This document shows, in pieces, positions 37,187 through 60,577 of a stretch of DNA of 64,000 nucleotides (position 1 is the stretch's first letter; every line of letters starts with the position of its first letter). Made by a program: the position numbers and the translations under genes. Source of the DNA: Verrucomicrobiota bacterium (lineage in GTDB: Bacteria; Verrucomicrobiota; Verrucomicrobiia; Limisphaerales; PALSA-1396). The DNA lies in the NCBI GenBank assembly GCA_016200005.1, contig JACQFP010000006.1, forward strand, positions 61,086-125,085, given 5' to 3'. The notes beneath the pieces were generated by a model. It did not search any database, was not told where the DNA came from, and worked only from the letters and a program-made list of their open reading frames with translations.

Positions 37187-37681
37187 AATGACAATTTCCG
37201 TTTCGGGCCAAAGGCATTGAGGTAGGAATGTCTCTGACGTTTCGACAACGCTAGGGTGGTTGGTTTGGGCTTTCAAGAACTAAGTTGACGCTGCATGTTT
37301 CTCGAATGAATGGAGTACCCGTAGTTACGACCTGAACTCGCGCGCGTTTGGCTCAGTTCCGTCGGGCGGGAGTGACGCATGGCAACCGTTGCTCTGGCGA
37401 ACCGGGTGGCGACTGCGGGATCCTGACGAGCGGCGGGATTAACCACGTGATGTGGAAGTCAAAATTAGGCTTGCTAAAATATTTTATCAGTAAAGCCTTG
37501 GCGTCATCATGAATGTCGCGGCCATAAATGTTTTCGACGTTCCGGAAGCGGGTTCGTGCCCGCTCGATCCGCAGCGTCAACCACCAGTAACCAACCTCGG
37601 CGTCCCAGGCGCGGGCACAATTTCCGTACGCGCTCAAACCCGGCCCAGTCGCTGTTTGCGGTCGAAAGACGGGAGGTCATC
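37187..37681. other. Intergenic region, 495 bases, no clear gene
   Basis: An open frame on the minus strand (37353-37637, 94 codons) contains no recognisable motif and ends in a proline-rich tail, so I do not call it a gene. No repeat from the families in this window was found. It must hold the promoters of the divergent ceramidase-like and radical SAM genes. Just before 37682, GGGAGG gives an unusually good ribosome-binding site for this genome. Confidence 0.5.
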
Positions 37682-39301
37682 ATGATGGTTTTTCTGGTGC
37701 ACGTCCGCGACCCGCAGTTTTACGCGCTGCCGGCCAAAACTCGCGCCAAGAACGGAAACATCCGGGTGATGGGGTTTCCGCCCATCGGCATCATGTCGCT
37801 CTCGGCGGTGCTGAAACGCGCCGGCCACCAGTGCGTGATGTTTGATCAGGCCAATCCGGACACACCCAATGAGGTCATCATCGAAGAAATCAGGAAGCAG
37901 AAGCCGGCGCTGGTGGGCTTGAGCTTCTTGAGCACCACCAGTTATCCGTATGCCAAAATGCTCGCCCGCGAGATCCGCGCCGCTGACGCCGGGGTGAAGC
38001 TGGCGTTTGGCGGTGTGTTCGCCAGCCTCAACGCGCCGCTGATCAAGCAACAATGTCCGGAGGTGGACTTCGTCTGTCGCGGCGACGGCGAACAGCTTCT
38101 GCTCGACCTGCTGGAGCATCTGGATGATCCGTCCAGCGTGGCGAGTGTGACCTGGGCGAAGGATGGCCAGGTCGTGAACAATCCGAATCGGGCGATGGAC
38201 CGCAATCTGGATCAATGGCCGTTCCCCGACCGGGAGAGTCTGCCGCTGGACTTTGTCGAATCCATGCCGCTGGACGTGCCGGCTGTGCTGTCCATGGAGC
38301 GGTTCACGACGATGCAAACCTCGCGCGGCTGTCCGTGGTCGTGCGTCTTCTGCGACATTCCGATTTTCAACGAAGGCAAGTGGCGCTCCCGGACGCCGCA
38401 ACACGTCGTGGACGAATTTAAGCATCTTCAGAAGCTGGGGTACGGCGCGGTTTATTTTGTGGACGACCATTTCCTGCTTCAGCCGAAACGGATCGAGGCC
38501 ATCTGCCAAGGTCTCAACGACGAGGACATCACGATTCAATGGGGCTGTGAAGGACGGGTGGATTCCGTCGCCCAGCACTTGTTTCCGGCGATGGCCAAGG
38601 CGCACTGCCGCACCCTGATGTTCGGACTCGAGAGTGGCAGCCAGAAAATTCTCGACCGCTTGAACAAGGAGCAGACGCTGGAGGAAATGAGGACGGCCGT
38701 GACCAACGCCAAGCGCGCCGGCATCCAGATCGTGCATGGATTTTTTGTGGTCGGCAACCCGGATGAAACCGTCGAGGACATGAAGGCGACGTTTGATTAT
38801 GCGGCGAAGCTGCCGCTGGATACGTTCGGGTTCAACCGGCTGTGTGTCTATCGTGGCACGCCGATGTGGCATGAATATGTGAAACGCGGCCTGGTCAATG
38901 AAGCGACCGATTGGTACAAATACTTCAAGTGTTCGGAGATCGATCCGACCTGTCTGCCGGGCGAGGTGATCAATGACGTGCGTCGCGCCGGGTTGCGGCA
39001 TTTGTTTGTTTACAAGCTGCTGCATTATCCGGTGCAGACCTTCCGGCTGTTGCGGCGCTTTCTTCGTTTCATGCCGTTGCGAGACGTGGTCTATCTCATC
39101 ATCAAACCGTTCCTGGGCAAGAAAAGCGGCGCCACGAAGGCGGAAGTGTTGTCGCGCGCGGTCGAGCATGGCGCGGTGAAGGATGCGGCGGCGCTGATGA
39201 CGCAGTTGAGTGAGGAAAGGCTCGAGCACGTGCTTCAGGAGTCGCGGGCGGAACGTCGGCGCATTCAAAAGGAAGCCGAAGGTTACGCGCCGTCGCGTTG
39301 A
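37682..39301 (+). CDS. B12-binding radical SAM protein
   Basis: 539 residues from the ATG at 37682, five bases after a strong GGGAGG. The N-terminal 140 residues are a cobalamin-binding-like Rossmann domain (FPPIGIMSLSAVLKRAGHQC, VGLSFLSTTSYPYAKMLARE, KLAFGGVFASLNAP, CRGDGEQLLLDLLEHL). The radical SAM core has the 4Fe-4S ligands in TSRGCPWSCVFCDI (CxxxCxxC), then YFVDDHFLLQPKRIEAICQG, MFGLESGSQKILDRLNKEQT and GFFVVGNPDETVEDMKATFD. Members do methylations, ring rearrangements and similar steps on lipids or natural products; the substrate here is not known. It is the first plus-strand gene of the probable glycolipid region. Confidence 0.9.
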   Translation: MMVFLVHVRDPQFYALPAKTRAKNGNIRVMGFPPIGIMSLSAVLKRAGHQCVMFDQANPDTPNEVIIEEIRKQKPALVGLSFLSTTSYPYAKMLAREIRAADAGVKLAFGGVFASLNAPLIKQQCPEVDFVCRGDGEQLLLDLLEHLDDPSSVASVTWAKDGQVVNNPNRAMDRNLDQWPFPDRESLPLDFVESMPLDVPAVLSMERFTTMQTSRGCPWSCVFCDIPIFNEGKWRSRTPQHVVDEFKHLQKLGYGAVYFVDDHFLLQPKRIEAICQGLNDEDITIQWGCEGRVDSVAQHLFPAMAKAHCRTLMFGLESGSQKILDRLNKEQTLEEMRTAVTNAKRAGIQIVHGFFVVGNPDETVEDMKATFDYAAKLPLDTFGFNRLCVYRGTPMWHEYVKRGLVNEATDWYKYFKCSEIDPTCLPGEVINDVRRAGLRHLFVYKLLHYPVQTFRLLRRFLRFMPLRDVVYLIIKPFLGKKSGATKAEVLSRAVEHGAVKDAAALMTQLSEERLEHVLQESRAERRRIQKEAEGYAPSR

Positions 39302-39416: not shown

Positions 39417-41009
39417 TTAAGGCTTATCTCTCCAAGCGAAAGTGACGATCACCGGGGCCCAGGAGATATGCTGCACGACTTTTTGCAGCGACTTGATGGA
39501 ATCCGGCGGCGCGACTCTGGCGGTGTTGACCAATTGAATTTCCACCAGCTCCGGCCGCGATTTCAATTGCGCGATCACCGGCTCGTACCGGCGATAATAA
39601 TCAAACTGCGTCAAGATAACCTTGGATGGTCTCAACGAGATCAACCCTTCCACATCTGATCCAGTCTTGGAGGGTTGGATTTTGGCGAGCCAATCCGAAT
39701 GAATCCAATTCACGTCGTCATGGCGCGCGGCTTCGTAAAGATACGCCGCCGACAGCACCACCGCAGGCTTGCCCTCCTGGGAAAGGTTTCCCATTTCCTC
39801 TTGGACGCGCTGAATCGCCGACGCGTAGCTGACATCCGCCGCACAAATCAATCCCCAGGTCGTCATGCCCACCGCCCGGATTGAACCCAACAGCATCAAC
39901 AGCACAAAAAAAACTGCCTGCGCCCGCATCGAGCGTTTCCCCGGCAACAGCGCGGCGCGCAAGGCGAGATAAGCGGCGACCAGCAACGGTTGAAGGTAGG
40001 CGGCGACGCCGATCATGTTCGACGTCACCAATACCAGACACGCCGCCACAACCGCCAGTGCCGTCAACAAACCGGTCATCACCACCAGTTCGTGCGCCAC
40101 ATCCGCCGGCGACTCGAAATCCTTCCACTGCTTGAACCACAACCATGGCAAGAGCACGCCAATGGCGATCACGCCTGGCACCGTGCGCGCCACTTTCAGC
40201 AATTCCGCCGTCGTCGGCCATCGCCAGCCAGTCAACGATGGAGTCTGGCGGGCATGTTCCAGAAAACCGCTCCAGAGGTTCGGGTGAATGGAGGCTACGT
40301 AAATCACCAACGCAATTGGCACGAGCACCATGACCAACATCGGGGCGAGCGGAAACTTTTCTTCTTTGGCCAGCGTGCTTGCCAGCATCCCGATGGCAAT
40401 CCACAGAAAATAAATCCCGCCGATTTGCAGGCTGCTGCCCAGGCACAACACCACCAAGGCAGCAGCCGCAAGCGCCCATCCGTGACTGGGCTTCGCCGAA
40501 TCTTTTTGAGCAAAAAAACGGCGCGAGCGAATCCAGGAATAAACCGCCAACATGCCGAACACGTGCGCCAGGCCGTCCGGTCGATCGTGAAACGTCTGCA
40601 CCAGGAGAAATCCACCCGCAATGTTAACGCACCAGCTCGGCGTCCTTAAATGTTTGAAAATCGCCAGCAGGATCAGCATGTAAGCCCCAAACAACACCAG
40701 ATGCAGCCACATGGCTGACACCGCGGAAGTGCCAAACACGAACATCCACGGCAGCAGCACAAGTTGATAGAGCGGCGGGTAGGCGCTGAAAACTTCCGCG
40801 CCGGAAATGGGAAACGCCATCGCCAAAGCAGGGTTGACGTAGTTTCCGTTCAACAGAAAATTCACCACCGGCCCGTCGTAAAAAAACGAATCGTTCGCCG
40901 GGACAGGTTGGGCGGAGAAAACAAGGAGCGCCGCTTTCCACGCGAAGACGAGCACAAACACCAGCCACCGGCTGCTCATCCACTGTTTAGGCGACAATTG
41001 AGACGACAT
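39417..41009 (-). CDS. Multi-span membrane protein, glycosyltransferase 39 (GT-C) like
   Basis: 530 residues with about ten membrane segments. The first extracytoplasmic loop has SAQPVPANDSFFYDGPVVNF, with an acidic residue after the first helix as in GT-C enzymes of the PMT/ArnT type, and PLYQLVLLPWMFVFGTS. The C-terminal 100 residues are soluble (EEMGNLSQEGKPAVVLSAAY, VILTQFDYYRRYEPVIAQLK). GT-C enzymes take sugars from polyprenyl-phosphate carriers outside the membrane, which fits the UbiA fusion gene encoded divergently 204 bases away. The assignment rests on topology, not on a firm motif. Confidence 0.65.
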   Translation of the reverse strand: MSSQLSPKQWMSSRWLVFVLVFAWKAALLVFSAQPVPANDSFFYDGPVVNFLLNGNYVNPALAMAFPISGAEVFSAYPPLYQLVLLPWMFVFGTSAVSAMWLHLVLFGAYMLILLAIFKHLRTPSWCVNIAGGFLLVQTFHDRPDGLAHVFGMLAVYSWIRSRRFFAQKDSAKPSHGWALAAAALVVLCLGSSLQIGGIYFLWIAIGMLASTLAKEEKFPLAPMLVMVLVPIALVIYVASIHPNLWSGFLEHARQTPSLTGWRWPTTAELLKVARTVPGVIAIGVLLPWLWFKQWKDFESPADVAHELVVMTGLLTALAVVAACLVLVTSNMIGVAAYLQPLLVAAYLALRAALLPGKRSMRAQAVFFVLLMLLGSIRAVGMTTWGLICAADVSYASAIQRVQEEMGNLSQEGKPAVVLSAAYLYEAARHDDVNWIHSDWLAKIQPSKTGSDVEGLISLRPSKVILTQFDYYRRYEPVIAQLKSRPELVEIQLVNTARVAPPDSIKSLQKVVQHISWAPVIVTFAWRDKP

Positions 41010-41213
41010 GTTGTTTCAGCCAGCTTGCACCGAGCGCTCACCAAAGTCATGCAGTCTATTTCTCGTTCCTTTGGAGAGGTATCATGGAAAAGTCCACCTT
41101 TGCGGTCACCCGATTGATCAACTGCGCAGACTCGTTTTTCAAAAACGGAAGGGCTTGTCAATGGACAATGCCCTCGGCTACTTTCCCGGCATCCGTTGCA
41201 ACCGAAACTCAAC

Positions 41214-42665
41214 ATGCCCGCGACTGTCAGCACCGAACCAGCGACTCTAGTCCCGCTCTGCGTGGATCTGGACGGCACGCTGATCAAGACGGACTTGTTG
41301 GGTGAGTCCATGACGCGATTGCTCAAGCGCAATCCGCTCCACCTTTTCGTCCTGCCGTTCTGGTGGCTGAAAGGCCGGGCCTTTTTGAAACGCGAGATTG
41401 CCGCACGCGTTGAATTGGACGTAACCACCCTGCCCTATCACCAACCGTTGATTGATTTTTTGCGCGAAGAACATCGTCGTGGTCGCCCCATTTTCCTCGC
41501 GACCGCTTCGGACCGGAAGCTGGTGCAGCCCGTCGCCGATCACGTGGGGTTGTTCACCGCTGTGTTGGCCAGTGATGGTGAAACCAATCTGCGCGGGACG
41601 CAAAAACTTCGGGCGATGGAAGAGCGATTCGGGATGCGCGGCTTCGATTACGCCGGCAATTCATCCGTGGACCTGCCGGTGTGGCAACATGCCCGTCAGG
41701 CCATTGTGGTCAACGCGCGGGAAAGCGTCACGGCGCGCGCCCGGCAGATTGCGACCGTCAGCCATGTGTTCAACGAGGCGCAAATGCCCATCCAGTCACT
41801 TCTCAAAACCTTGCGCCCTCATCAATGGGTCAAGAACCTAATCATCTTCGTTCCCCTGCTCACTTCGCATCAACTCAACAACACCACGCTGCTGGCGCAC
41901 GCGGTGCGGGCGTTCGTCGCGTTCAGCCTGTGCGCGTCGAGCGTGTATGTCCTGAACGATTTGCTCGACCTCGATGCCGACCGCCATCATCCGACCAAGA
42001 AACTGCGGCCTTTTGCGGCCGGCGATTTGTCATTGCCGACCGGCTTTGCGCTCGTGCTGATCCTGCTGGTCGGGAGTTTCGGACTTGCGTGGCTGCTGCC
42101 GAAAACTTTCGCCCTGGTGCTGGCACTGTACTTCGTCCTCACGACGAGTTATTCATGGCGACTGAAACAATTCGTGTTGCTCGACGTGTTTTTTCTGGCG
42201 GGACTTTACACGATGCGGCTGATTGGAGGTCACGAAGCAACGGAGATTGCTTACTCATTTTGGCTGCTGGCGTTTTCGATGTTCATTTTCCTGAGCCTGG
42301 CACTGGTAAAGCGCTATCTCGAACTGCTTGCGTTGCGGCACGAAAACAGGCACGACGTGAAGGGCCGCGGTTACACCGCCAACGACCTCGAAATGGTCGC
42401 CACGCTCGGCACCGCCAGCGGTTATCTCTCCGCGCTCGTGCTGGCCCTGTACGTGAACAGTGAGCAGGTCGTGAAACTCTACGCGCACCCGATCCTGCTG
42501 TTGCTGGCGTGTCCGCTCTTGCTTTACTGGATCAGCCGTGTGTGGCTCATTGCGCATCGCGGACAAATGCACGACGATCCGATCGTCTTCGCGCTCAAGG
42601 ACAGCACCAGTTACGTCATCGGCGGGCTGACGCTGTTGGTGCTCTGGCTGGCCACCGGTCATTAG
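41214..42665 (+). CDS. HAD phosphatase - UbiA prenyltransferase fusion
   Basis: 483 residues. Residues 1-190 are a HAD-superfamily phosphatase (CVDLDGTLIKTDLLGESMTR, TASDRKLVQPVADHVG, FDYAGNSSVDLPVW). From about residue 195 comes a UbiA-type membrane prenyltransferase: LLKTLRPHQWVKNLIIFVPL, the first Asp-rich motif NDLLDLDADRHHPTKKLRP, later helices and KRYLELLALRH. In this architecture the UbiA part resembles decaprenyl-phosphate 5-phosphoribosyltransferase and the HAD part is thought to remove the 5-phosphate. The product would be polyprenyl-phosphate-ribose. The ATG at 41214 is chosen over an in-frame TTG at 41196. The GMC gene follows by 17 bases. Confidence 0.85.
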   Translation: MPATVSTEPATLVPLCVDLDGTLIKTDLLGESMTRLLKRNPLHLFVLPFWWLKGRAFLKREIAARVELDVTTLPYHQPLIDFLREEHRRGRPIFLATASDRKLVQPVADHVGLFTAVLASDGETNLRGTQKLRAMEERFGMRGFDYAGNSSVDLPVWQHARQAIVVNARESVTARARQIATVSHVFNEAQMPIQSLLKTLRPHQWVKNLIIFVPLLTSHQLNNTTLLAHAVRAFVAFSLCASSVYVLNDLLDLDADRHHPTKKLRPFAAGDLSLPTGFALVLILLVGSFGLAWLLPKTFALVLALYFVLTTSYSWRLKQFVLLDVFFLAGLYTMRLIGGHEATEIAYSFWLLAFSMFIFLSLALVKRYLELLALRHENRHDVKGRGYTANDLEMVATLGTASGYLSALVLALYVNSEQVVKLYAHPILLLLACPLLLYWISRVWLIAHRGQMHDDPIVFALKDSTSYVIGGLTLLVLWLATGH

Positions 42666-42682
42666 CTCGCAGTTGGTCCTGA

Positions 42683-44650
42683 ATGGCACAACGCATGAAC
42701 GCATGGTTTCACGACACGGTGTCGGCCTTGGCCTATTCGCTGGCTCAGCCCCACGCCGAGCCAACTCGGCCAGACTTGCAACCGCCTTACAACGATCTCA
42801 CCCAATTCGTTTTGGGTCAGCATGGGCGAATGACCGATTACCTCCGCACACCACTGAAAGCATTGACGTTGGGGTTTGATCTGCTTGGTTTTTTTGGAAA
42901 CTGGAAACCTTTTCATCAATTGTCGCCCGTCGCTCGCCGACGTCAGATCGAGGCCTGGAAAAGTTCGTCCAGTGGTTTTAAACGGGACTTAATCCGCTAT
43001 TACGAAAGTCTGGCGACGCTCGCCCTTTACAGTCGCGATCTAAGCGAATCCCCTCACGCAACCTCCGCCCACCCTCTCCCCCGCCGAGGGGGAGAGGGAC
43101 GGGGTGAGGGGAACATCAAGCAACCGGGAGATAACCTTAATATCATCGGGATCCCCAACCGCGAACTCCGCCATGAGATTGTGGTGATCGGTTCTGGGCC
43201 GGGTGGCGCGATCACCGCTTGTCTGCTGGCGGAGGCCGGACGCAACGTGTTGTTGATCGAAGAAGGGCCGTTTTATTCTCTCGCATCGTGCGTCCCATTC
43301 ACGAAAGAGGAAATGGTGCAAAAGTATCGCAACGGCGGACAGACCGTGGCGATGGGCACGAACAAAATCGCTTACGTCGAGGGGCGCTGTGTTGGCGGCG
43401 GCAGTGAGATCAACAGCGGGCTTTATCACCGCACGCCGCCCGACATTCTGGAAAGCTGGCGCAAAGAATTTCAGGTGGACGGATCGAACGAGATCGATCT
43501 GCTTCCGCATTTTGAAGCGTGTGAAAAGGAATTGTCGGTTTCGCTCCTGCCCGGCACAGCGCCGGCGGCCTCGTTGAAATTGCATGACTGCGCGACGCAG
43601 CTCGGCTGGAAATCATTTGAGGTGCCGCGCTGGTTTCGCTACGACGCAAACGGTAGCCGCCGACGTGAGGAGGCGGAAACCAAAGACGAAACAACCGTCC
43701 GCCTCCTCACGTCGGCGGCTACAGAGCGCGGGTCCGGCAAACGACAATCGATGACCGAAACTTACGTGCCGCGTTTTTTGAACGCCGGGGGTCAACTGTT
43801 GCCGCTCACCCGCGTTCAAACGATTCACCAGGACGGCGGAAGGTGGACGCTGTTCGCCCAACACGCCTCGGTCGGCGCGCTGCGCATCGAGTCGGAAACG
43901 CTGTTTGTGTGCGGCGGCGCGGTGCAGACACCCACGTTGCTAAGACGCAGCGGCATCAAACGCAACATCGGCAACTCGCTGCGACTCCATCCGACGATCA
44001 AGCTCGTCGCAAGATTTTCCGATGTGGTGAACTCAGCGCACATGGGCGTGCCGGTGCATCAAGTGAAGGAGTTTGCGCCGCGATTCAGTTTTGGTTGTTC
44101 CATCAGCACGCCGCCTTATCTGGCGTTGGGAATGATCGATCATCCCGAACATGGGAACGTTGTGCGACACTCCTGGCAGCAGATGGCCAATTATTACGCC
44201 ATGATCACCGGCGAAGGCCGCGGCACCGTGCGCCCGTTGCCGGGGTTTCGTGATCCACTGGTAAGGTACACCCTTACGAGAAATGACCGCCGCGATCTGG
44301 CTGAAGGTTTGCACAAACTCACCGAAGCTCTCTTTGCATCCGGTGCCGTGGCGCTCTATCCGGGCATTACCCGTGGCGGGTGTTTACTGCGCCCCGATGA
44401 TCTGGCAAAGTTGCCGAACGTTTTGCCCAACGCACTTGCCAGCCTGATGACGATTCACTTGTTTTCGTCTTGTCCGATGGGTGAAAATAAGACCAAGTGC
44501 GCCGTTGATTCTTTCGGTCGGCTGCACGGCTTCAAGAATCTATTCGTGGCAGACGCCAGTTTGCTGTGCACCGCGCCCGGCGTGAATCCGCAAGGCTCGA
44601 TCATGGCGCTCGCGCGCAGAAACGCGCTCAGGTTTTTGGGGGGCCATTGA
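42683..44650 (+). CDS. GMC family FAD-dependent oxidoreductase with two in-frame repeat insertions
   Basis: 655 residues. FAD-binding HEIVVIGSGPGGAITACLLA (Rossmann GxGxxG, about residue 160) is preceded by an unusual N-terminal helical region of 155 residues. GRCVGGGSEINSGLYHRTPP, the His-containing TIHLFSSCPMGENKTKC and GFKNLFVADASLLCTAPGVN with PQGS are GMC C-terminal motifs. Two repeats are inserted without breaking the frame: family A (ESPHATSAHPLPRRGGEGRG) before the FAD domain, and family G (GSRRREEAETKDETTVRLLT and SAATERGSG) in the substrate domain. It lies tightly between the UbiA fusion (17 bases) and an SDR epimerase (17 bases), so it is in one operon with them. It oxidises an alcohol; the substrate is unproven. 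Confidence 0.9.
   Translation: MAQRMNAWFHDTVSALAYSLAQPHAEPTRPDLQPPYNDLTQFVLGQHGRMTDYLRTPLKALTLGFDLLGFFGNWKPFHQLSPVARRRQIEAWKSSSSGFKRDLIRYYESLATLALYSRDLSESPHATSAHPLPRRGGEGRGEGNIKQPGDNLNIIGIPNRELRHEIVVIGSGPGGAITACLLAEAGRNVLLIEEGPFYSLASCVPFTKEEMVQKYRNGGQTVAMGTNKIAYVEGRCVGGGSEINSGLYHRTPPDILESWRKEFQVDGSNEIDLLPHFEACEKELSVSLLPGTAPAASLKLHDCATQLGWKSFEVPRWFRYDANGSRRREEAETKDETTVRLLTSAATERGSGKRQSMTETYVPRFLNAGGQLLPLTRVQTIHQDGGRWTLFAQHASVGALRIESETLFVCGGAVQTPTLLRRSGIKRNIGNSLRLHPTIKLVARFSDVVNSAHMGVPVHQVKEFAPRFSFGCSISTPPYLALGMIDHPEHGNVVRHSWQQMANYYAMITGEGRGTVRPLPGFRDPLVRYTLTRNDRRDLAEGLHKLTEALFASGAVALYPGITRGGCLLRPDDLAKLPNVLPNALASLMTIHLFSSCPMGENKTKCAVDSFGRLHGFKNLFVADASLLCTAPGVNPQGSIMALARRNALRFLGGH
43050..43111. 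repeat. Family A palindromic repeat, copy 4, in GMC gene
   Basis: Outer arms CCCCTCAC / GTGAGGGG and an inner hairpin CCCTCTCCCCC / GGGGGAGAGGG. It is in the opposite orientation to the copies in the uvrA-like genes, so the encoded peptide differs (HPLPRRGGEGRGEG), yet it is still open. Confidence 0.85.
43653..43722. repeat. Family G palindromic repeat, copy 2, in GMC gene
   Basis: A perfect 25-bp inverted repeat whose arms begin GTAGCCGCCGACGTGAGGAG, with a 20-base spacer, 70 bp in all. It is inserted in the coding sequence at about residues 324-347. Confidence 0.9.
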
Positions 44651-44667
44651 ATCGCGAACGCAGCTCT

Positions 44668-45723
44668 ATGAATCTTCAGACCAACCAAGTCATCGTCACC
44701 GGCGCGCTCGGCTGGCTCGGCATGAGCCTCGTGCAGGCGTTGGTCAAAGGCTTACCCGATCACGATGACCTCAAGCAGCCGCAAAAGGATTTGCGCATTC
44801 GCTGTCTGATTTTACCCGGACAAGATGGCAACGCGCTCAGTAAAATTTCAAAGCGAATTGTGGTCGATACCGGCGACATTCGCAACCCTGCCGACTGTGC
44901 GCGTCTTTGCCAGGGTGCAAAGGAAGCGATACTCTTCCACACCGCCGGCATCATCCACCCGCGTAACGTGGCGGAGTTTTATCAGATCAATCTGGACGGG
45001 ACGATCAACGTGCTCGACGCCGCCATCCGCGCCGGTGTCAAACGCGCAATCATCGTCTCCTCAAACTCGCCCTGCGGTTGCAATCCACACCCCGATCATT
45101 TGTTCGATGAACTTTCGCCGTATCGCCCTTACATGCACTACGGCCGCTCCAAGATGCGGATGGAACTGGCCGTGAAGCAGCGGCAGGACCGAATCGAAAC
45201 CGTCCTCATCCGTCCGCCGTGGTTTTACGGGCCGAATCAACCGCCGCGCCAGACCCTGTTCTTCCAGATGATTCGCGACGGCAAAGCGCCCATCGTCGGC
45301 AACGGCCGGAATTTGCGCTCGATGAGTTACATCGACAATCTCTGCCAAGGGTTGCTGCTCGCAGCGCTCGTCGAGCAGGCAAGCGGACAAACCTATTGGA
45401 TCGCGGACAAACGGCCTTATTCAATGAATGAAATCGTCGATACCGTCGAACGTTTGCTGGAAAATGAATTCGGACAACAATGCGCGCACAAACGCCTGCG
45501 ACTGCCGGGACTCACCAGTGAAATCGCATACGCGGTGGATGCCACCTTGCAAACGGCGGGCTTTTATCACCAGAACATTCACGTCCTTTCGGAGATGAAC
45601 AAAACCATCGCCTGCTCCGTGGCCAAGGCGGAAAAAGAACTGGGTTATCGCGCGGCAGTGGAACTGGAGGAAGGCATGCGGCGCTCGCTGCGGTGGTGTG
45701 GGGAAAGTGGAATTCGTATTTAA
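44668..45723 (+). CDS. NAD-dependent epimerase/dehydratase (extended SDR), 1
   Basis: 351 residues from the ATG at 44668. Nucleotide-binding VIVTGALGWLGMSLVQALVK, FHTAGIIHPRN, INLDGTINVLDAAIRAGVKR, and the catalytic Tyr and Lys in YMHYGRSKMRMEL are seen; RPPWFYGPNQPP and SMSYIDNLCQGLLLA continue the extended-SDR pattern. It resembles 3-beta-hydroxysteroid dehydrogenase/sugar epimerases. Position directly after the GMC oxidoreductase suggests the two act in turn, oxidation and then reduction of the same hydroxyl, to invert it. It converges with the membrane protein at 45767, with 43 bases between. Confidence 0.9.
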   Translation: MNLQTNQVIVTGALGWLGMSLVQALVKGLPDHDDLKQPQKDLRIRCLILPGQDGNALSKISKRIVVDTGDIRNPADCARLCQGAKEAILFHTAGIIHPRNVAEFYQINLDGTINVLDAAIRAGVKRAIIVSSNSPCGCNPHPDHLFDELSPYRPYMHYGRSKMRMELAVKQRQDRIETVLIRPPWFYGPNQPPRQTLFFQMIRDGKAPIVGNGRNLRSMSYIDNLCQGLLLAALVEQASGQTYWIADKRPYSMNEIVDTVERLLENEFGQQCAHKRLRLPGLTSEIAYAVDATLQTAGFYHQNIHVLSEMNKTIACSVAKAEKELGYRAAVELEEGMRRSLRWCGESGIRI

Positions 45724-45766
45724 CCCTCTTTAAAGAGCGGTCGTCGTCTCGCAACCTGCCCAACAA

Positions 45767-47386
45767 TCAGTCCGCGTCCAGAGCGGTTCGCTTCTCGGTG
45801 ACGGTTGCAGGTTTTCGCGGCACCAGGATTCGACAGTCCCCAATGAGAGGCAGGTAGCGCCCGATTTCAGCCCGGTCACTACATTCAGGTTTCTTGACGA
45901 CAGTTTGCAGTTGATAATTCCTTCCAATCTCGTCCAGGAATTCGGGAGGGTACCAATCTTCTACGGTCAGGTAGAGGCGATCGTAATAATGCTGACGAAT
46001 GCGATCCGGGAAGTGTGACAGGCCAGCATAGCCCGCGGCTTTGAGTTCGAGGATGGTGTTGACGCGATCCAAGGGCACTTCCCGCACTCCGGCACGAAGG
46101 AGATACATCATGCCGTGGCCGATGAGGATCTTGCGGCCGGCGTTGAGGTCCAGGTCAACCTGTTGCTGGATTTTCGCGCAAGCCGCATACATGGCCGGGT
46201 GAGCCGGGAAGCGTGTGGGGAATAGCAAAAGCACAAACGCGGTGAGCAACCATCCCACCACAAAATCGAATCGAGAATACTGACTTGCGGCCAGCGCTGG
46301 GCGCAGCCTCATTTGGTTCAGCCACAGTCCAACAGCCGGCCACACCAAGAACAGCAACCAGAATTGAAAGATGATGAGATTGTTATAGGACCCGAAGTGC
46401 TTCGCATAAGCCAGGGCGGCCGGCCAGACAGAGCAAACGCCTATCGCAATCCAGACTTGCAAATATTGCCGGCCTGCCGAACCTGCGCCCCAGACGAGCG
46501 GCAGTGCCGCCAACCCGAGCACCGCCAACATCGCCCGGTCGGCATGCAACATGTCAAAGATCAACCAGTAAAACCTCGTCAGATGCACACCTTGGCGGGT
46601 GAGTACTTCCCACGTGTAAAAGCGCGCGAACTCAGGACGCCACAGCACAGCCAGCGCCGCGCTGCTGGCCAGCGCACCGACTCCCGCAAGCAAAACCGAT
46701 TTCCGCCACCCCCAGGGATTGAACCGCGCAAAGACCAATGCAGAACCGACAAACGACACGCTGAGCGTTTGCTTTGCAAACACTCCCAATCCGGCAAACG
46801 CCATGGTGGCAAGTGCCAGCCCGAAGGATCGCTTTTGCAGAGCGGTGAGCGTAAGCAGAAACAAACCCGCCATGTGCAGCATCGCCAGGTTATCTGGATG
46901 CGTAATGTCCGAAGTGAGATTCTTGAAAATAACCAGCAGAGCGATCCCGCTGCCCAGCCACGCCAGCCGCGTAGATCGCCTATCGTCCCCCACCATCAGC
47001 AGCGCTCGGCGCAACGCCAACCCGGCCATCCCGGCCGCGAGGACACCGATGCCCACGTTGACCATTCGACAGAAGCGAATGTCCAAGTGCAGGCCTAGTG
47101 GCTTCAGCAATGCGAAAGTGAGATATTCCAGCCCGGGACTATAAACGAAGGAATTGCCATCCGCCGGTGGACCGAACAGGGAGTGGCCCAGCTCCAGCTT
47201 GAGCATGTTCGTCATAAACGGGCTTTCCGACCAAATGAACAAGTCCCAGGGGAAACTGATTCTGAGGGCAACCTGAACGATGAGAATCACGACGAACAAA
47301 CCCACCAGCACGGACACCAGCCACAGAGACGGCACGTGAGTCCAAACCCGGCTGGCTGGCGCATCTTCTGAATTCCCGACCGGCAT
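45767..47386 (-). CDS. Multi-span membrane protein, GT-C glycosyltransferase-like
   Basis: 539 residues with about eleven membrane segments. After the first helix the extracytoplasmic loop reads SFPWDLFIWSESPFMTNMLK, with an acidic residue in the usual GT-C place, then NSFVYSPGLEYLTFALLKPL. The last 140 residues are soluble (DLNAGRKILIGHGMMYLLRA, YYDRLYLTVEDWYPPEFLDE). It is like the protein at 39417 in plan but not closely in sequence. It is likely to move sugars from lipid carriers on the outer face of the inner membrane; this rests on topology and on neighbouring UbiA and SDR genes. Confidence 0.65.
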   Translation of the reverse strand: MPVGNSEDAPASRVWTHVPSLWLVSVLVGLFVVILIVQVALRISFPWDLFIWSESPFMTNMLKLELGHSLFGPPADGNSFVYSPGLEYLTFALLKPLGLHLDIRFCRMVNVGIGVLAAGMAGLALRRALLMVGDDRRSTRLAWLGSGIALLVIFKNLTSDITHPDNLAMLHMAGLFLLTLTALQKRSFGLALATMAFAGLGVFAKQTLSVSFVGSALVFARFNPWGWRKSVLLAGVGALASSAALAVLWRPEFARFYTWEVLTRQGVHLTRFYWLIFDMLHADRAMLAVLGLAALPLVWGAGSAGRQYLQVWIAIGVCSVWPAALAYAKHFGSYNNLIIFQFWLLFLVWPAVGLWLNQMRLRPALAASQYSRFDFVVGWLLTAFVLLLFPTRFPAHPAMYAACAKIQQQVDLDLNAGRKILIGHGMMYLLRAGVREVPLDRVNTILELKAAGYAGLSHFPDRIRQHYYDRLYLTVEDWYPPEFLDEIGRNYQLQTVVKKPECSDRAEIGRYLPLIGDCRILVPRKPATVTEKRTALDAD

Positions 47387-47517
47387 TCACGACCGAGAGT
47401 ATCCGAAACTTATGCGCTGACAAGTCAATTCCCGAAACCTTATGCTATTCCGCCAAAAAAAATGATTCCGGCCAACCAACTACGTTGCAGGGAACGGAAC
47501 TGTCCGCCATTCTGTTC

Positions 47518-48555
47518 ATGACCAACTCCAACGCACTCATCACTGGCGGCTCGGGCTACTTCGGCTCGCTCTTGCGCGACCGTTTGCGGGCGCGCGGCCA
47601 GACGGTGCGCGTCTTTGATCTGGTGGATGCCGGGGATCGAACGAGCGACGTTAGTTTTGTTGCAGGCGACATTCGGGACGAAGCGCGTGTGGCGGAAGCG
47701 TGCACCGGTTGCGATTTGGCTTATCATTGCGTCGCGCAAGTGCCGCTGGCGAAGGACAAGAAGTTGTTTCACTCCGTCAATGTTGATGGCACGGACAATC
47801 TACTCAAATGCGCGCTCGCCGCCAGGGTGCGCAAAGTTATCTACGTCTCGTCGAGCGCAGTGTTTGGCGCGCCGAAGAAAAATCCGGTCACGGAAGAAAC
47901 GTTGCCCACGCCTGCCGAAGCTTATGGTCGCGCCAAACTGGAAGGCGAAACGCTGTGCGCCCACTACGCACGGCTGGGGTTGGATGTCTCGGTCATCCGC
48001 CCGCGCACCATCATGGGCCACGGACGGTTGGGTATTTTCCAGATTCTTTTTGAATGGATTCGCGAAGGTTACAATGTGCCCGTGCTGGGAAGCGGAGAAA
48101 ATGTTTATCAATTCGTCCATGCCGATGATCTCGCTGAAGCCTGCATCCTGGCCGCCGCCCGGATCGGACCGACGACTTACAATTGCGGCACGGACCGTTT
48201 CGGTTCGATGCGCGAAGTGTTGGCGCATTTGTGCGCCCACGCCAAGACGGGTTCAAAAGTGAAAAGCGTTCCAATGCAACCCGCCGTCTGGTTCATGAAT
48301 GTCAGCAGTGCGTTGGGTCTCTCGCCCCTCGGGCCGTATCATGCGCTGATGTATGGCCGCTCGCTTTACTTTGACATCGCCAAAGCGCAGAAGCAGTTGA
48401 GCTGGCAACCGCGTTTCTCCAACAACGAGATGTTCGTGCAGAGCTACGATTGGTATCTCCAAAACCGCGAGGCCATTCTACGCTCACCCGGCGCGTCGCA
48501 TCATCGTTCGGCGGTCAAGCAGGGAGTTCTGAGTCTCGTAAAACATTGGTTGTGA
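47518..48555 (+). CDS. NAD-dependent epimerase/dehydratase (extended SDR), 2
   Basis: 345 residues from the ATG at 47518. SNALITGGSGYFGSLLRDRL binds the cofactor; VNVDGTDNLLKCALAARVRK, VIYVSSSAVFG, EAYGRAKLEGETL (Tyr and Lys) and SVIRPRTIMGHGRLG follow. The family is that of sugar-nucleotide or 3-beta-hydroxysteroid-type epimerases/dehydrogenases. The last bases overlap the lnt start (GTGA), so they share a transcript. It could be the reductase partner for the GMC enzyme or serve another sugar; it is distinct in sequence from the SDR at 44668. Confidence 0.9.
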   Translation: MTNSNALITGGSGYFGSLLRDRLRARGQTVRVFDLVDAGDRTSDVSFVAGDIRDEARVAEACTGCDLAYHCVAQVPLAKDKKLFHSVNVDGTDNLLKCALAARVRKVIYVSSSAVFGAPKKNPVTEETLPTPAEAYGRAKLEGETLCAHYARLGLDVSVIRPRTIMGHGRLGIFQILFEWIREGYNVPVLGSGENVYQFVHADDLAEACILAAARIGPTTYNCGTDRFGSMREVLAHLCAHAKTGSKVKSVPMQPAVWFMNVSSALGLSPLGPYHALMYGRSLYFDIAKAQKQLSWQPRFSNNEMFVQSYDWYLQNREAILRSPGASHHRSAVKQGVLSLVKHWL

Positions 48556-50213
48556 ACTTTGTTCGCTCATTCATCCAGAGCCGTTATCCGCTGGCCATCG
48601 TCGCGGGACTTTTGCTCGCGGCTTCCTTTCCGAAAATTGGGATCGCGGGTTGCGCCTGGATAGCCCCAGGCCTGATGCTCGCGGTCGCCTTCGGACAGAC
48701 TGGGAAACAGGTTTTCCGAATCGGATATGTGGTGGGAATGGCGCATTATCTGGCAACACTCTATTGGCTGCTCCTGATCCCAGTCCGCGGAGCGCCGATT
48801 CTGGGCTGGCTGGCGTTAAGCACGTTTCTGGCGCTCTATCCGGCCACGTGGGTCTGGCTGGTCTCCAAGGTTGCAGGTTTCAAGGTTGAGGTTGCCAATT
48901 CAACCGCTCCGACGAAACTCTCACTGGCTGATGCAGTGTTCTCGTCAAGTTGGATTCGACGAACTGGATGGGCACTTTGCGGCGCGGCCATCTGGGTCGC
49001 GCTCGAAATGACACAGGCGCGCTTTCTGAGCGGCTTTCCCTGGAATCTGCTGGGCACGTCGCAATACAAAATCCTGCCGCTGATCCAGATCGCGTCAATC
49101 ACAGGTGTTTATGGCGTGTCGTTTCTCGTCGTCTGGTGTTCGTTGTCAATGCTGTGCGCGCTGGTCGCCGTCATTCAACGGCCCAAGGTGCGTTCGGCCT
49201 GGGTTGGTGAACTGTTGCTGCCATTGCTGGTCGTGGGAATCGTATTTGGTTGCGGCTATCGCAAAATCATGCAGCCAGCCTCAACCGGTCGCGAACTGAC
49301 ATTGGCGCTGGTCCAGCCCAGCATTCCGCAGACGCTGATCTGGGACGCCAATGAAAACACCAATCGCTTCCAACAATTGCTGAAACTTTCGGAACAGGCA
49401 TTGACCAATCATCCGGACGTATTGCTGTGGCCGGAGGCGGCCGTGCCGAATCTTTTGCGCTGGCACGAGCCGACTTACCGCGCCGTCACCGGCCTCGCCC
49501 GCTCAAACAAAGTCTGGATGATCATCGGGGCGGACGACGCCGAACCGCGTCGCAACACGCCCAATCCCAATGACGCCGATTATTTCAACAGCAGTTTCCT
49601 TATCAGTCCCCAGGGAGAAATCGTGAAAAGTTATCGCAAACGACTGCTCGTCGTTTTCGGCGAATACATCCCGCTGGTGCGTTGGCTGCCGTTTCTGACA
49701 TATTTTACGCCCATCGAAGAAGGCGGCTTTACTCCGGGCGACCGGCCCGTGCCGTTCGAGCTGCGTGATTTGAGAGTGAAGACTTCGGTGCTGATTTGTT
49801 TCGAAGATAATTTTCCGCACGCCGTTCGAGATTACGTGGACGACGACACCGATTTTCTGGTGAACCTGACGAACAACGGTTGGTTCGGCGAAGGTGCCGC
49901 GCAATGGCAACACGCCGCCAATGCAATATTCCGCACGGTGGAGAACGGCTTGCCGCTGGTTCGTTGCACGAACAATGGTTTGACTTGCTGGGTCGATGCC
50001 AACGGACGCTTGCGCGATGTGTTCGGGATGGAAAGCGGCAATGTCTATGGCAGTGGTTTCATCACCATTCGAGTTCCGCTGCTCCCCCTCGGACAAAAAC
50101 GCGAGCCGACATTTTACCACCAGCACGGCGACTGGTTTGGATGGGGTTGCGTGTTCGCGACCGTGTTGATGATGACGAAATTAGCCATTCGACGGAAGTC
50201 TGCGACGGACTGA
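48552..50213 (+). CDS. lnt: Apolipoprotein N-acyltransferase
   Basis: 553 residues from a GTG at 48552 that overlaps the previous stop codon. It transfers an acyl chain to the N-terminus of outer-membrane lipoproteins. The N-terminal third has about six membrane segments (IVAGLLLAASFPKIGIAGCA, LEMTQARFLSGFPWNLLGTS). The nitrilase domain carries the catalytic Glu in LLWPEAAVPN, Lys in YRKRLLVVFGEYIP and Cys in TSVLICFEDNFP. LTNNGWFGEGAAQWQHAANA is also diagnostic. It is a little longer than E. coli Lnt because of a loop between helices (EVANSTAPTKLSLADAVFSS). A second Lnt-like enzyme is encoded at 59165. Confidence 0.93.
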   Translation: MNFVRSFIQSRYPLAIVAGLLLAASFPKIGIAGCAWIAPGLMLAVAFGQTGKQVFRIGYVVGMAHYLATLYWLLLIPVRGAPILGWLALSTFLALYPATWVWLVSKVAGFKVEVANSTAPTKLSLADAVFSSSWIRRTGWALCGAAIWVALEMTQARFLSGFPWNLLGTSQYKILPLIQIASITGVYGVSFLVVWCSLSMLCALVAVIQRPKVRSAWVGELLLPLLVVGIVFGCGYRKIMQPASTGRELTLALVQPSIPQTLIWDANENTNRFQQLLKLSEQALTNHPDVLLWPEAAVPNLLRWHEPTYRAVTGLARSNKVWMIIGADDAEPRRNTPNPNDADYFNSSFLISPQGEIVKSYRKRLLVVFGEYIPLVRWLPFLTYFTPIEEGGFTPGDRPVPFELRDLRVKTSVLICFEDNFPHAVRDYVDDDTDFLVNLTNNGWFGEGAAQWQHAANAIFRTVENGLPLVRCTNNGLTCWVDANGRLRDVFGMESGNVYGSGFITIRVPLLPLGQKREPTFYHQHGDWFGWGCVFATVLMMTKLAIRRKSATD

Positions 50214-58691: not shown

Positions 58692-59168
58692 ATGGCCACC
58701 TCCTCCCTCGCTGCCGAGCCGCGTTACGAGGCGCTGTTGCAACTGTTGCGCACGGCCGACACACTGTGGAATGCCAGCCGGGTTTTCTTTGCGCGCTGGA
58801 ATCTCAGCCCCAGCCAGTTCAATGTGTTGAACCTCCTGGCCAGTCACCCCAAAGGTCTTTCCCAGATCGAACTGGGCCGTTTGCTCGTCATGCACCGTTC
58901 CAACGTGACCGGACTTATCGACCGGTTGGAAACGCGGGGTTTGGCGCAACGTCGCGATCACTTGACCGATCGACGGGCTTTCGTCGTCGTGTTGACGCCC
59001 GTGGGAAAGAGACTGATTTGCCAGATCGAACCTCATTACCGGAGAGCAGCGGCTGGAGTCTGGGGCGGCGTCCCGGTCAAGCGCGTCAATCAATTGCTGT
59101 CGGAGCTGGTCACCGTCAGCGCCAACGCCGAACGCATTGCTGGAGAAATCGCCCCCAAATTTTCATGA
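58692..59168 (+). CDS. MarR family transcriptional regulator
   Basis: 158 residues, winged helix-turn-helix. NASRVFFARWNLSPSQFNVL, LASHPKGLSQIELGRLLVMH, RSNVTGLIDRLETRGLAQRR, DHLTDRRAFVVVLTPVGKRL are the MarR core with the DxR wing. It is the first gene of a tight operon; its stop codon overlaps the start of the Lnt-like gene (ATGA). MarR proteins usually repress their own operon until a small lipophilic ligand binds. Here the operon products are membrane lipid enzymes, so a fatty acid or membrane-active compound is a reasonable guess. Confidence 0.92.
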   Translation: MATSSLAAEPRYEALLQLLRTADTLWNASRVFFARWNLSPSQFNVLNLLASHPKGLSQIELGRLLVMHRSNVTGLIDRLETRGLAQRRDHLTDRRAFVVVLTPVGKRLICQIEPHYRRAAAGVWGGVPVKRVNQLLSELVTVSANAERIAGEIAPKFS

Positions 59169-60577
59169 ACGACACCACCATGACCGCGCGCAAACCGGTG
59201 CTTTCCTGGAAACAGGCGCTGGGATGGTCGGCGTTGGCCATCGCTGCATTTCATGTCGCTTACGGCTTCGCCCGATGCAGTTTGCTGATTCTGATTTATC
59301 TCTATTGTCTTTGCGCGTTGACGCGGCTCGCCAGCGACCGACGCGCTTTTTATTTCGGACTGGTGATCGGGATGCTGGTTTATGGACCGCAACTCTATTT
59401 CTTCTACACCATCTTTGGAGCGGCAGCAGCGGTGCTTTGGCTCGTGCTGGCATTCTGGTTGGGGCTTTTCATGCTGCTGGCGCGCCATTGCCGACAGCGA
59501 CTTGGCCCAAGCGTGGCGGCTTTGCTGATCCCCTTCCTCTGGACGGGTCTGGAATACGTTCGCAGCGAACTTTACTATCTTCGTTTTTCCTGGCTGAACG
59601 TCGGCTATGTGTTTTGGGACAATCCAGCTCTGCCGTTCATCAAATATCTCGGTGTTTATGGCACTGGCTTTGTGCTCACGGCCATCATGGCGCGAGTGGC
59701 CCTGATCCGTAAAGGTCTGCTGGCAGTTTATGCCATGAGCATTTCCTTGCTGGCGACGTTGCTGATCCTCAATGCCCATTCGATTCCAAGCGAGCCGGCC
59801 GGTAACCGCGTTTCCGTCGCGGGCGTGCAAATGGAATTTCCTGCTCCACTGGAAGTGCCGCTCGCGCTCGACAAGCTGCTTCAGCAAAATCCGGACGCGC
59901 AATTGCTGGTCTTGAGCGAATACACATTTGACGGCCCTGTGCCAGAACGCGTCAAGAACTGGTGCGAGAAGAACAATCGACATCTCATTGTCGGCGGAAA
60001 AGCTCCGGCCTCGGAGCATCAGTATTACAACACGGCCTTTGTCATCGACCCCAACGGCGAAATCGTCTTCCAACAGGTCAAAAGCGTCCCGATTCAATTC
60101 TTCAAGGATGGTCTGCCCGCGAAGGAACAGAAAGTGTGGGAGTCGCCCTGGGGCAAGATTGGCATCTGCGTTTGTTATGATTTGAGCTACACGCGCGTCA
60201 CCGACGAGCTGATTCGTCAAGGCGCACAAGCGTTGATCGTCCCGACCATGGACGTGGCCGAGTGGGGTGGACATCAACACCGGTTGCACACGCGGGTCGC
60301 TCCCGTGCGTTCGGCGGAGTATGGCGTGCCGGTTTTTCGCGTTTGCAGTTCCGGCATCTCGCAACTCACCGACGGCGACGGGCGCATCCTCGCAACTGCG
60401 CCGTTTCCCGGCGAAAACGAGACTATCGCAGGTCAACTTCGTTTGAGTGAAGGCAGCCACCGGCCAATCGACCGCTGGCTCGCACTGCCGGCGGTGTTGA
60501 TCGCGGCCACTGTGCTGATTTGGTTTGCGGCGGCTGGCCTGCGTCGGCGTCCACCGATGTCACGTCGCCAATCCTGA
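59165..60577 (+). CDS. Lnt-like membrane carbon-nitrogen hydrolase, second copy
   Basis: 470 residues from the ATG at 59165. About six or seven membrane segments (LVIGMLVYGPQLYFFYTIFG, LVLAFWLGLFMLLARHCRQR) are followed by a nitrilase domain: Glu in LLVLSEYTFDGPVPERV, Lys in VFQQVKSVPIQFFKDG and Cys in IGICVCYDLSYTRVTDELI. The layout is that of apolipoprotein N-acyltransferase, but the sequence around the Glu and Lys differs from canonical Lnt, and a true lnt is at 48552. Placed between MarR and an acyltransferase/acyl-ACP synthetase fusion, it may acylate or hydrolyse an amine-containing lipid. A much longer open frame starting at 58766 is a read-through of MarR. Confidence 0.82.
   Translation: MNDTTMTARKPVLSWKQALGWSALAIAAFHVAYGFARCSLLILIYLYCLCALTRLASDRRAFYFGLVIGMLVYGPQLYFFYTIFGAAAAVLWLVLAFWLGLFMLLARHCRQRLGPSVAALLIPFLWTGLEYVRSELYYLRFSWLNVGYVFWDNPALPFIKYLGVYGTGFVLTAIMARVALIRKGLLAVYAMSISLLATLLILNAHSIPSEPAGNRVSVAGVQMEFPAPLEVPLALDKLLQQNPDAQLLVLSEYTFDGPVPERVKNWCEKNNRHLIVGGKAPASEHQYYNTAFVIDPNGEIVFQQVKSVPIQFFKDGLPAKEQKVWESPWGKIGICVCYDLSYTRVTDELIRQGAQALIVPTMDVAEWGGHQHRLHTRVAPVRSAEYGVPVFRVCSSGISQLTDGDGRILATAPFPGENETIAGQLRLSEGSHRPIDRWLALPAVLIAATVLIWFAAAGLRRRPPMSRRQS

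Follow-up and report, generated by a model that had tools for sequence, protein, structure and literature searches.

A conserved gene set with a GMC-family flavoprotein proposed to remodel lipid-linked ribose

The DNA analysed here is a stretch of 64,000 nucleotides, called the window, from contig JACQFP010000006.1 (positions 61,086 to 125,085) of a Verrucomicrobiota bacterium. It carries a module made up of a fusion of a HAD and a UbiA domain (HAD-UbiA), a flavin adenine dinucleotide (FAD) oxidoreductase of the GMC family, and two extended short-chain dehydrogenases, SDR1 and SDR2. We consider it likely that the product of this module is a pentofuranose linked to polyprenyl phosphate and different from ribose, and that the GMC enzyme and SDR1 replace DprE1 and DprE2, the sole oxidase-reductase pair given for this step in the excerpts of PMC11127046, PMC2443382 and PMC5080398 from which these papers are cited here. 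The gene set is conserved in many unrelated bacteria and probably remodels lipid-bound ribose to another five-carbon sugar.

The genes for HAD-UbiA (41214..42665, + strand), the GMC enzyme (42683..44650, +, 655 residues) and SDR1 (44668..45723, +) are co-directional and, with the starts chosen, 17 bases separate the first from the second and the second from the third. SDR2 follows at 47518..48555 (+). Alternative starts are TTG 41196 for HAD-UbiA and TTG 47485 for SDR2, and the open reading frame (ORF) of SDR1 opens at GTG 44566. The first-pass annotation had described this spacing together with flanking GT-C-like proteins and a second SDR, and the ORFs, strands, gaps and Pfam matches confirm the description. 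The host genome is 6.54 Mb in 87 contigs and 96.2% complete, and the nearest named relatives belong to Verrucomicrobiota, a Limisphaerales metagenome-assembled genome and Pedosphaera.

Distribution of the GMC enzyme and DprE1

Among 286 genomes of the class, GMC homologues were found in six at E≤1e-30, and HAD-UbiA scored over the NF006088 cut-off in 26; at E≤1e-60 the latter number is 35, seven of the nine extras being matched via the HAD part alone. DprE1 was scored with a profile of 447 positions (A1) on the five best candidates per genome, and a near full-length DprE1 was seen in 16 of the 286 (E≤1.5e-129, sibling scores 432–740 bits). At E≤1e-10 the profile matches 181 genomes; beyond the 16, the matches listed are partial, about 110–185 positions with E≥1.3e-24, and they were read as other FAD_binding_4 enzymes and excluded from the count. 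Among the 26 HAD-UbiA genomes, 12 hold a near full-length DprE1, five hold GMC and none holds both. Within the class alone this mutual exclusion is modest evidence, the one-sided chance that none of five GMC genomes holds DprE1 being about 0.03 if the two were independent (hand calculation). DprE1 adjoins HAD-UbiA in 10 of the 12, nine times as a same-strand neighbour and once (G257) convergently with a DprE2-like gene between, and is on another contig in two. The GMC gene adjoins HAD-UbiA in its five genomes, at the position that DprE1 occupies in siblings. In the sixth genome with a GMC homologue (G184) the GMC gene is fragmentary, and a UbiA piece lies about 2 kb off.

No DprE1 was found in the window's genome, where all 28 candidates were scored and five matched partially, the best at 43 bits (3.6e-11, positions 34–192 of 447). 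The other four GMC genomes of the class, searched as named copies with all candidates scored, also gave no DprE1 at E≤1e-30. This absence had been proposed as a check on the idea that GMC is a non-homologous stand-in for DprE1. The idea, which genomic context and fold support, fits, since there is no DprE1 here and the DprE1 of siblings adjoins the same kind of HAD-UbiA. The window's genome has no match to PF04030, a weak test since the sibling DprE1 scanned (n=1) also lacks PF04030; that protein matches PF01565 alone, and PF04030 was dropped as a test for DprE1. The families differ as well: the sibling DprE1-like protein (n=1) is FAD_binding_4 and the window flavoprotein is GMC, not FAD_binding_4.

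The partners are distributed with the GMC enzyme. SDR1 occurs at E≤1e-80 in five of the 286 class genomes, exactly those with both GMC and HAD-UbiA, on another contig in G101. SDR2 at E≤1e-70 is found in nine: the same five, G012, where the tail of SDR1 stands at a contig edge, and three with weaker scores (282–315 bits).

Five GMC proteins, searched against genome contigs, gave matches in 124 stretches, of which 80 encode relatives, in 75 loci from many phyla; L104, L126, L138 and L151 are apparently the class genomes G101, G039, G136 and G172. Partners were called by tblastn with a fixed reference set, at limits of 100 bits for GMC and DprE, 70 for UbiA and 150 for the SDRs. UbiA is present in 60 loci, all three partners in 44 and at least one in 74, the sole exception (L163) being on a 4.7 kb contig. 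Neither DprE1 nor DprE2 was found at the 100-bit limit in any of the 75. Nine of the loci are the source of reference proteins and so necessarily match themselves; the other 66 hold UbiA in 52, SDR1 in 53, SDR2 in 54, all three in 39 and at least one in 65. The 48 loci with at least 5 kb on either side have UbiA in 44, SDR1 in 40, SDR2 in 44 and all three in 36. GMC and UbiA share a strand in all 60 UbiA-bearing loci (25 with a HAD domain), and 50 of the 59 SDR1-bearing loci have that gene on the GMC strand, within 300 bases after GMC. Nine genomes without SDR1 in the GMC locus were searched, and five hold it elsewhere. The recurrence across phyla argues that the gene set is not a chance arrangement. 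No relative was found in viral contigs.

The second SDR had been treated as peripheral in the first-pass annotation. It is instead a core partner, as constant as SDR1 (63 vs 59 of the 75 loci), which implies that the module is not a plain two-enzyme copy of DprE1/DprE2. Eight cyanobacterial loci (L115, L116, L117, L119, L120, L122, L123 and L147, e.g. L123:10982-11542) encode a conserved protein of about 187 residues between SDR1 and SDR2, and the one scanned matches DUF218.

The module is also found on plasmids. Of 72,556 plasmid records, ten hold GMC (E≤1e-40; nine rhizobial, one Embleya), nine SDR1 (E≤1e-40) and 14 SDR2 (E≤1e-50; nine at ≥54.0% identity, five at ≤37.2%), and the same nine rhizobial plasmids, pNGR234a included, carry all three. 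HAD-UbiA relatives are present in 83 records, against 9–14 for the other members, and are thus spread wider than the module. The complete module of pNGR234a (295302-314729, L193) lies near nodS, with transposase genes between; the order is SDR2, an SMR transporter, a small protein and the GMC gene NGR_RS31070, with UbiA, SDR1 and a membrane protein on the opposite strand.

Properties of the encoded proteins

The HAD-UbiA fusion is assigned by NF006088, Pfam and its motifs as a polyprenyl-phosphate phosphoribosyltransferase with a phosphoribose phosphatase domain (PPPRS, ORF15 type). Pfam finds HAD (1e-9) and UbiA (9.7e-22), and the protein passes the cut-off of NCBIfam NF006088 (673.4 bits, E 1.7e-202, cut-off 351), the runner-up models, for decaprenyl-phosphate phosphoribosyltransferase, remaining below theirs. 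With phmmer the sole relatives in the PDB at E≤0.001 are the decaprenyl-phosphate phosphoribosyltransferase entries 8j8j (1.3e-32), the structure of Rv3806c, and 8j8k. The HAD nucleophile D18 in DLDGT and the NDxxDxxxD motif (N248/D249/D252/D256, numbered from ATG 41214) are intact. By position number alone they correspond to D18 and N247/D248/D251/D255 of ORF15 of Citrobacter youngae, and R367/E370 may in the same way correspond to R366/E369. ORF15 is a HAD-UbiA fusion that makes farnesyl-P-ribofuranose from phosphoribosyl pyrophosphate (PRPP), and D18 and the N247/D248/D251/D255 motif were tested in it (Kelly 2024, PMC11127046). Judged by family model and motif numbers, the window protein is of the same type of polyprenyl-phosphoribose synthase/phosphatase. 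The steps up to polyprenyl-P-ribofuranose are well founded by homology, because of the kinship to NF006088 and 8j8j and the motifs shared with the proven ORF15, and the scores to these two also uphold the earlier claim that the UbiA is of the decaprenylphosphoryl-5-phosphoribose (DPPR) synthase type.

A HAD domain resembling that of HAD-UbiA also occurs fused ahead of an apolipoprotein N-acyltransferase in six genomes of the order (L074-L077, L079, L080; e.g. L074:5532-7685, -). The HAD parts match NF006088 at 4e-66 to 7e-62, and the one HAD-Lnt fusion scanned has HAD, LNT_N and CN_hydrolase by Pfam. Two apolipoprotein N-acyltransferase-like genes are present in the window, at about 48555-50213 (+), after SDR2, and at 58766-60577 (+); a homologue adjoins the module in 7 of the 75 loci.

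A tree of 63 UbiA domains has two branches with full support in the Shimodaira-Hasegawa-like approximate likelihood ratio test (SH-aLRT). The first contains 20 rows without HAD, all beside GMC; the second contains 43 HAD-type rows (a few short or without HAD), of which 25 are labelled GMC, nine DprE and nine none. The tree shows the GMC module paired with two forms of the first enzyme that are only distantly related. The labels refer to the local neighbourhood, and the 'none' rows L050 and L062 carry DprE1 on another contig. The tree was made by a quick method, has 22 of 60 inner branches below 80 and some long branches, and leaves out SAR11, any row for which no UbiA ORF was called (L054, L058 and L061 among them) and L045/L046/L048/L052, duplicates of named loci. 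Six distant UbiA proteins were scanned, and their best model is DPPR synthase or NF006088, mostly below cut-off; L157 is over the NF008978 cut-off.

The flavoprotein has both GMC domains (GMC_oxred_N, PF00732, 2.3e-28; GMC_oxred_C, PF05199, 3.9e-19), the FAD-binding GxGxxG, the fold, and the His/Asn pair H592/N635, which is unchanged across 29 aligned sequences and which we take to be the catalytic pair of GMC enzymes. Its predicted structure (predicted local distance difference test, pLDDT, 88.5) is matched by Foldseek to cholesterol oxidase (2.0e-25) and fructose dehydrogenase (1.1e-24), and also to choline oxidase and C-glycoside and pyranose oxidases. The N-terminal part, about 120 residues, is helical, and its counterpart is an ORF of its own (118-162 residues, 43-49% identity) in 10 cyanobacterial loci examined. 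The window protein therefore looks fused from two parts. In seven more loci a small ORF stands directly ahead of GMC.

SDR1 belongs to 3Beta_HSD (5.2e-25) and has TGxxGxxG at 11 and Y158-K162, the Tyr-Lys being kept in four aligned sequences. The Pfam scan gave no match to PF00106 (adh_short), the classical SDR family, for SDR1 at E≤0.01, and the one sibling DprE2-like protein scanned matches it at 1.7e-33. SDR2 belongs to Epimerase (9.9e-41), with TGxxGxxG at 9 and an intact Y-x3-K (Y136-K140); its match to the HpnA model (1.5e-32) is below cut-off. A B12-binding radical SAM protein at 37556-39301 (+) has BchE and HpnJ as top NCBIfam matches, both below cut-off, and homologues, weak ones alone, in 2 of the 75 loci. 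A hopanoid or steroid role for the module was considered and set aside, as the HpnA- and HpnJ-like matches are below cut-off and the loci include SAR11 and Helicobacteraceae.

Two membrane proteins flank the operon. GTC1 (39417..41009, -, 530 residues) is divergent from it and has no Pfam match at E≤0.01. Eleven PDB chains match its predicted structure (pLDDT 81.6) at E≤0.001, all presumably GT-C enzymes: ArnT (2.0e-6), AftA (5.7e-5), AftB (7.0e-4), and DPY19, OST, AglB, ALG3 and Pmt4 chains. The TM-scores by query, 0.34-0.47, show a distant likeness, and the model makes GTC1 a candidate glycosyltransferase with the GT-C membrane fold. Its homologue cluster is found in 14 of the 75 loci. No relatives of GTC1 were found among the ORFs of DprE1-type loci, so the last-acting transferases give no clue as to whether the GMC and DprE1 modules yield the same sugar. 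GTC2 (45767..47386, -, 539 residues), the second GT-C-like protein, has a sub-threshold PMT_2 match (3.1e-4; 21.4 bits, cut-off 26.1) and homologues in 2 of the 75. A small SMR/EamA-type membrane transporter is encoded in 14 of the 75 loci (PF00893/PF00892 in three members scanned), and the flippase proposed for the mycobacterial pathway is an SMR-family protein (PMC11127046).

Proposed pathway and alternative explanations

In the pathway that we infer from the protein families, motifs, gene linkage and exclusion of DprE1, including substrate, order and product, the UbiA domain would use PRPP to attach phosphoribose to polyprenyl phosphate, and the HAD domain fused to it would remove the 5-phosphate. 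For this step the family assignment comes from the window's own protein, and the activity would be that proven in the homologue ORF15. The GMC enzyme would then oxidise polyprenyl-P-ribofuranose at a ring hydroxyl, giving a ketone that SDR1 would reduce from the opposite face. In this way two proteins that are not homologous to DprE1 and DprE2, or are no more than distant relatives of them, would do the job of that pair. SDR2 would be a third catalytic partner, a reductase or perhaps the enzyme of a second epimerisation. A second stereocentre may be inverted, since SDR2, with its intact Y-x3-K, occurs as regularly as SDR1. Finally, the lipid-linked sugar would be flipped and then added to a surface glycan by a GT-C enzyme, for instance GTC1. 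The leading guess for the inverted carbon, by analogy, is C2, giving arabinose.

Several observations weigh against this pathway. The assignments of GMC, SDR1 and SDR2 come only from genomic context and fold, and the nearest GMC structures include steroid and choline oxidases besides sugar oxidases. At the limits used, both GMC and DprE1 are missing from nine of the 26 HAD-UbiA genomes; only the five best DprE1 candidates of each were scored, so that a DprE1 may have been overlooked. Near HAD-UbiA in these genomes no third epimerase was recognised (gene order in seven, in L056 around the wrong gene; Pfam in two), and the neighbours in L059 and L069 are GDP-mannose-dehydratase-type and epimerase genes by Pfam. 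Among the 48 loci flanked by at least 5 kb on either side, four (L105, L112, L119, L125) show no UbiA, and of 50 GMC genomes searched, two match DprE1 weakly (184 and 139 bits; E≤1e-30). The SAR11 loci have GMC and UbiA in 8/8 and SDR2 in 6/8, with SDR1 in 0/8 and in 0/4 SAR11 genomes, and their UbiA is without the full DPPR-synthase motif; lacking both, these loci may do something different. No flippase for the export step was found here: PF00893 (the SMR flippase) has no match anywhere in the window's genome, and none is among the ten scanned genes flanking the module. A single protein encoded beside the module in SAR11 (L165:10303-12381) combines a GT2 domain with a radical SAM/SPASM part.

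It is conceivable, at somewhat less than an even chance, that the substrate is as proposed and the product is another, a sub-case of the same pathway in which the change is not at C2 alone and would be at C3 (xylofuranose), at C2 and C3 (lyxofuranose), or at C4 via a C5 aldehyde. Many GMC enzymes oxidise primary alcohols, and two SDRs are constant in the module where DprE1 works with one. In C. youngae a single SDR, ORF13, decides between Xylf and Ribf (PMC11127046). The presence of DprE1 at the position of GMC in siblings favours the same C2 chemistry, if weakly. An outcome in which GMC and SDR1 invert C2 and SDR2 inverts C3 to give polyprenyl-P-lyxofuranose is improbable; it would be a second, independently evolved and phylum-spanning route for diversifying lipid-linked pentofuranoses, and lyxofuranose is said to occur in no solved carbohydrate structure (PMC11127046).

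The GMC enzyme and the SDRs might also work elsewhere in the same glycan pathway, on a different sugar or lipid, with UbiA merely supplying ribose next to them. The GMC fold cannot specify the substrate, since steroid, choline and sugar oxidases are all among the nearest structures, and SDR2 resembles sugar-epimerase families generally, the sub-threshold HpnA match being one example. We find this unlikely, as UbiA is present in 60 of the 75 loci, in two distant forms with best matches to DPPR synthase or NF006088 in the six scanned, and DprE1/DprE2 occupy the same position in siblings. It is also unlikely that GMC leaves a permanently oxidised pentose, a keto- or aldehydo-sugar, and that SDR1 and SDR2 do something other than inversion. 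The SAR11 loci, with GMC and SDR2 and without SDR1, would suit such a product; elsewhere, the close same-strand position of SDR1 after GMC and its conserved Tyr-Lys speak against it.

If the replacement of DprE1/DprE2 by GMC and SDR1 is true, a non-homologous pair would extend over Verrucomicrobiota, Cyanobacteriota, Planctomycetota, rhizobial plasmids and others, implying that the step evolved more than once. One would then also expect the surface glycans of the organisms that bear the module to contain a pentofuranose so far unrecognised, and glycoengineers would gain new enzymes.

Comparison with known systems

The first-pass annotation had called the combination not known as described. This does not hold for HAD-UbiA itself, already described as ORF15. 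In the open-access literature (subscription papers and preprints lie outside this scope), no GMC enzyme was found placed in the pathway among the matches listed. The words 'GMC' and 'oxidoreductase' have no occurrences in the main text of PMC11127046; the paper mentions elaborate systems with multiple candidate epimerases, and it is possible that GMC-type systems were noticed earlier in its supplement. The terms 'GMC oxidoreductase' and 'UbiA' in PMC8526041, as far as the excerpt goes, are unrelated gene-table entries, and the gene names y4nG-y4nM gave four chance matches.

The pentofuranose system of C. youngae consists of the PPPRS ORF15, the epimerase ORF13, the MATE protein ORF14 and the GT136 ORF12 (PMC11127046). 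It shares with the window the HAD-UbiA type and its motifs, an adjoining GT-C candidate and SDR partners. The window, unlike C. youngae, has a flavoprotein and two SDRs, and no MATE/SMR flippase was found beside the module. The mycobacterial decaprenylphosphoryl-arabinose (DPA) pathway, with Rv3806c, Rv3807c and DprE1/DprE2, has in common with the window a UbiA of the DPPR-synthase type, then an FAD enzyme and an SDR, and then a GT-C protein. The DprE1-type pair is FAD_binding_4 and adh_short (one sibling each), whereas that of the window is GMC (PF00732/PF05199) and an extended SDR. Rhizobial noeCHOP, which acts in the arabinosylation of Nod factors, is a symbiosis-linked lipid-linked arabinose pathway with mycobacterial counterparts, noeC, noeH and noeO being related to mycobacterial orthologues (PMC2443382, PMC5080398). 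Unlike noeCHOP, the set near nodS on pNGR234a is of the GMC type.

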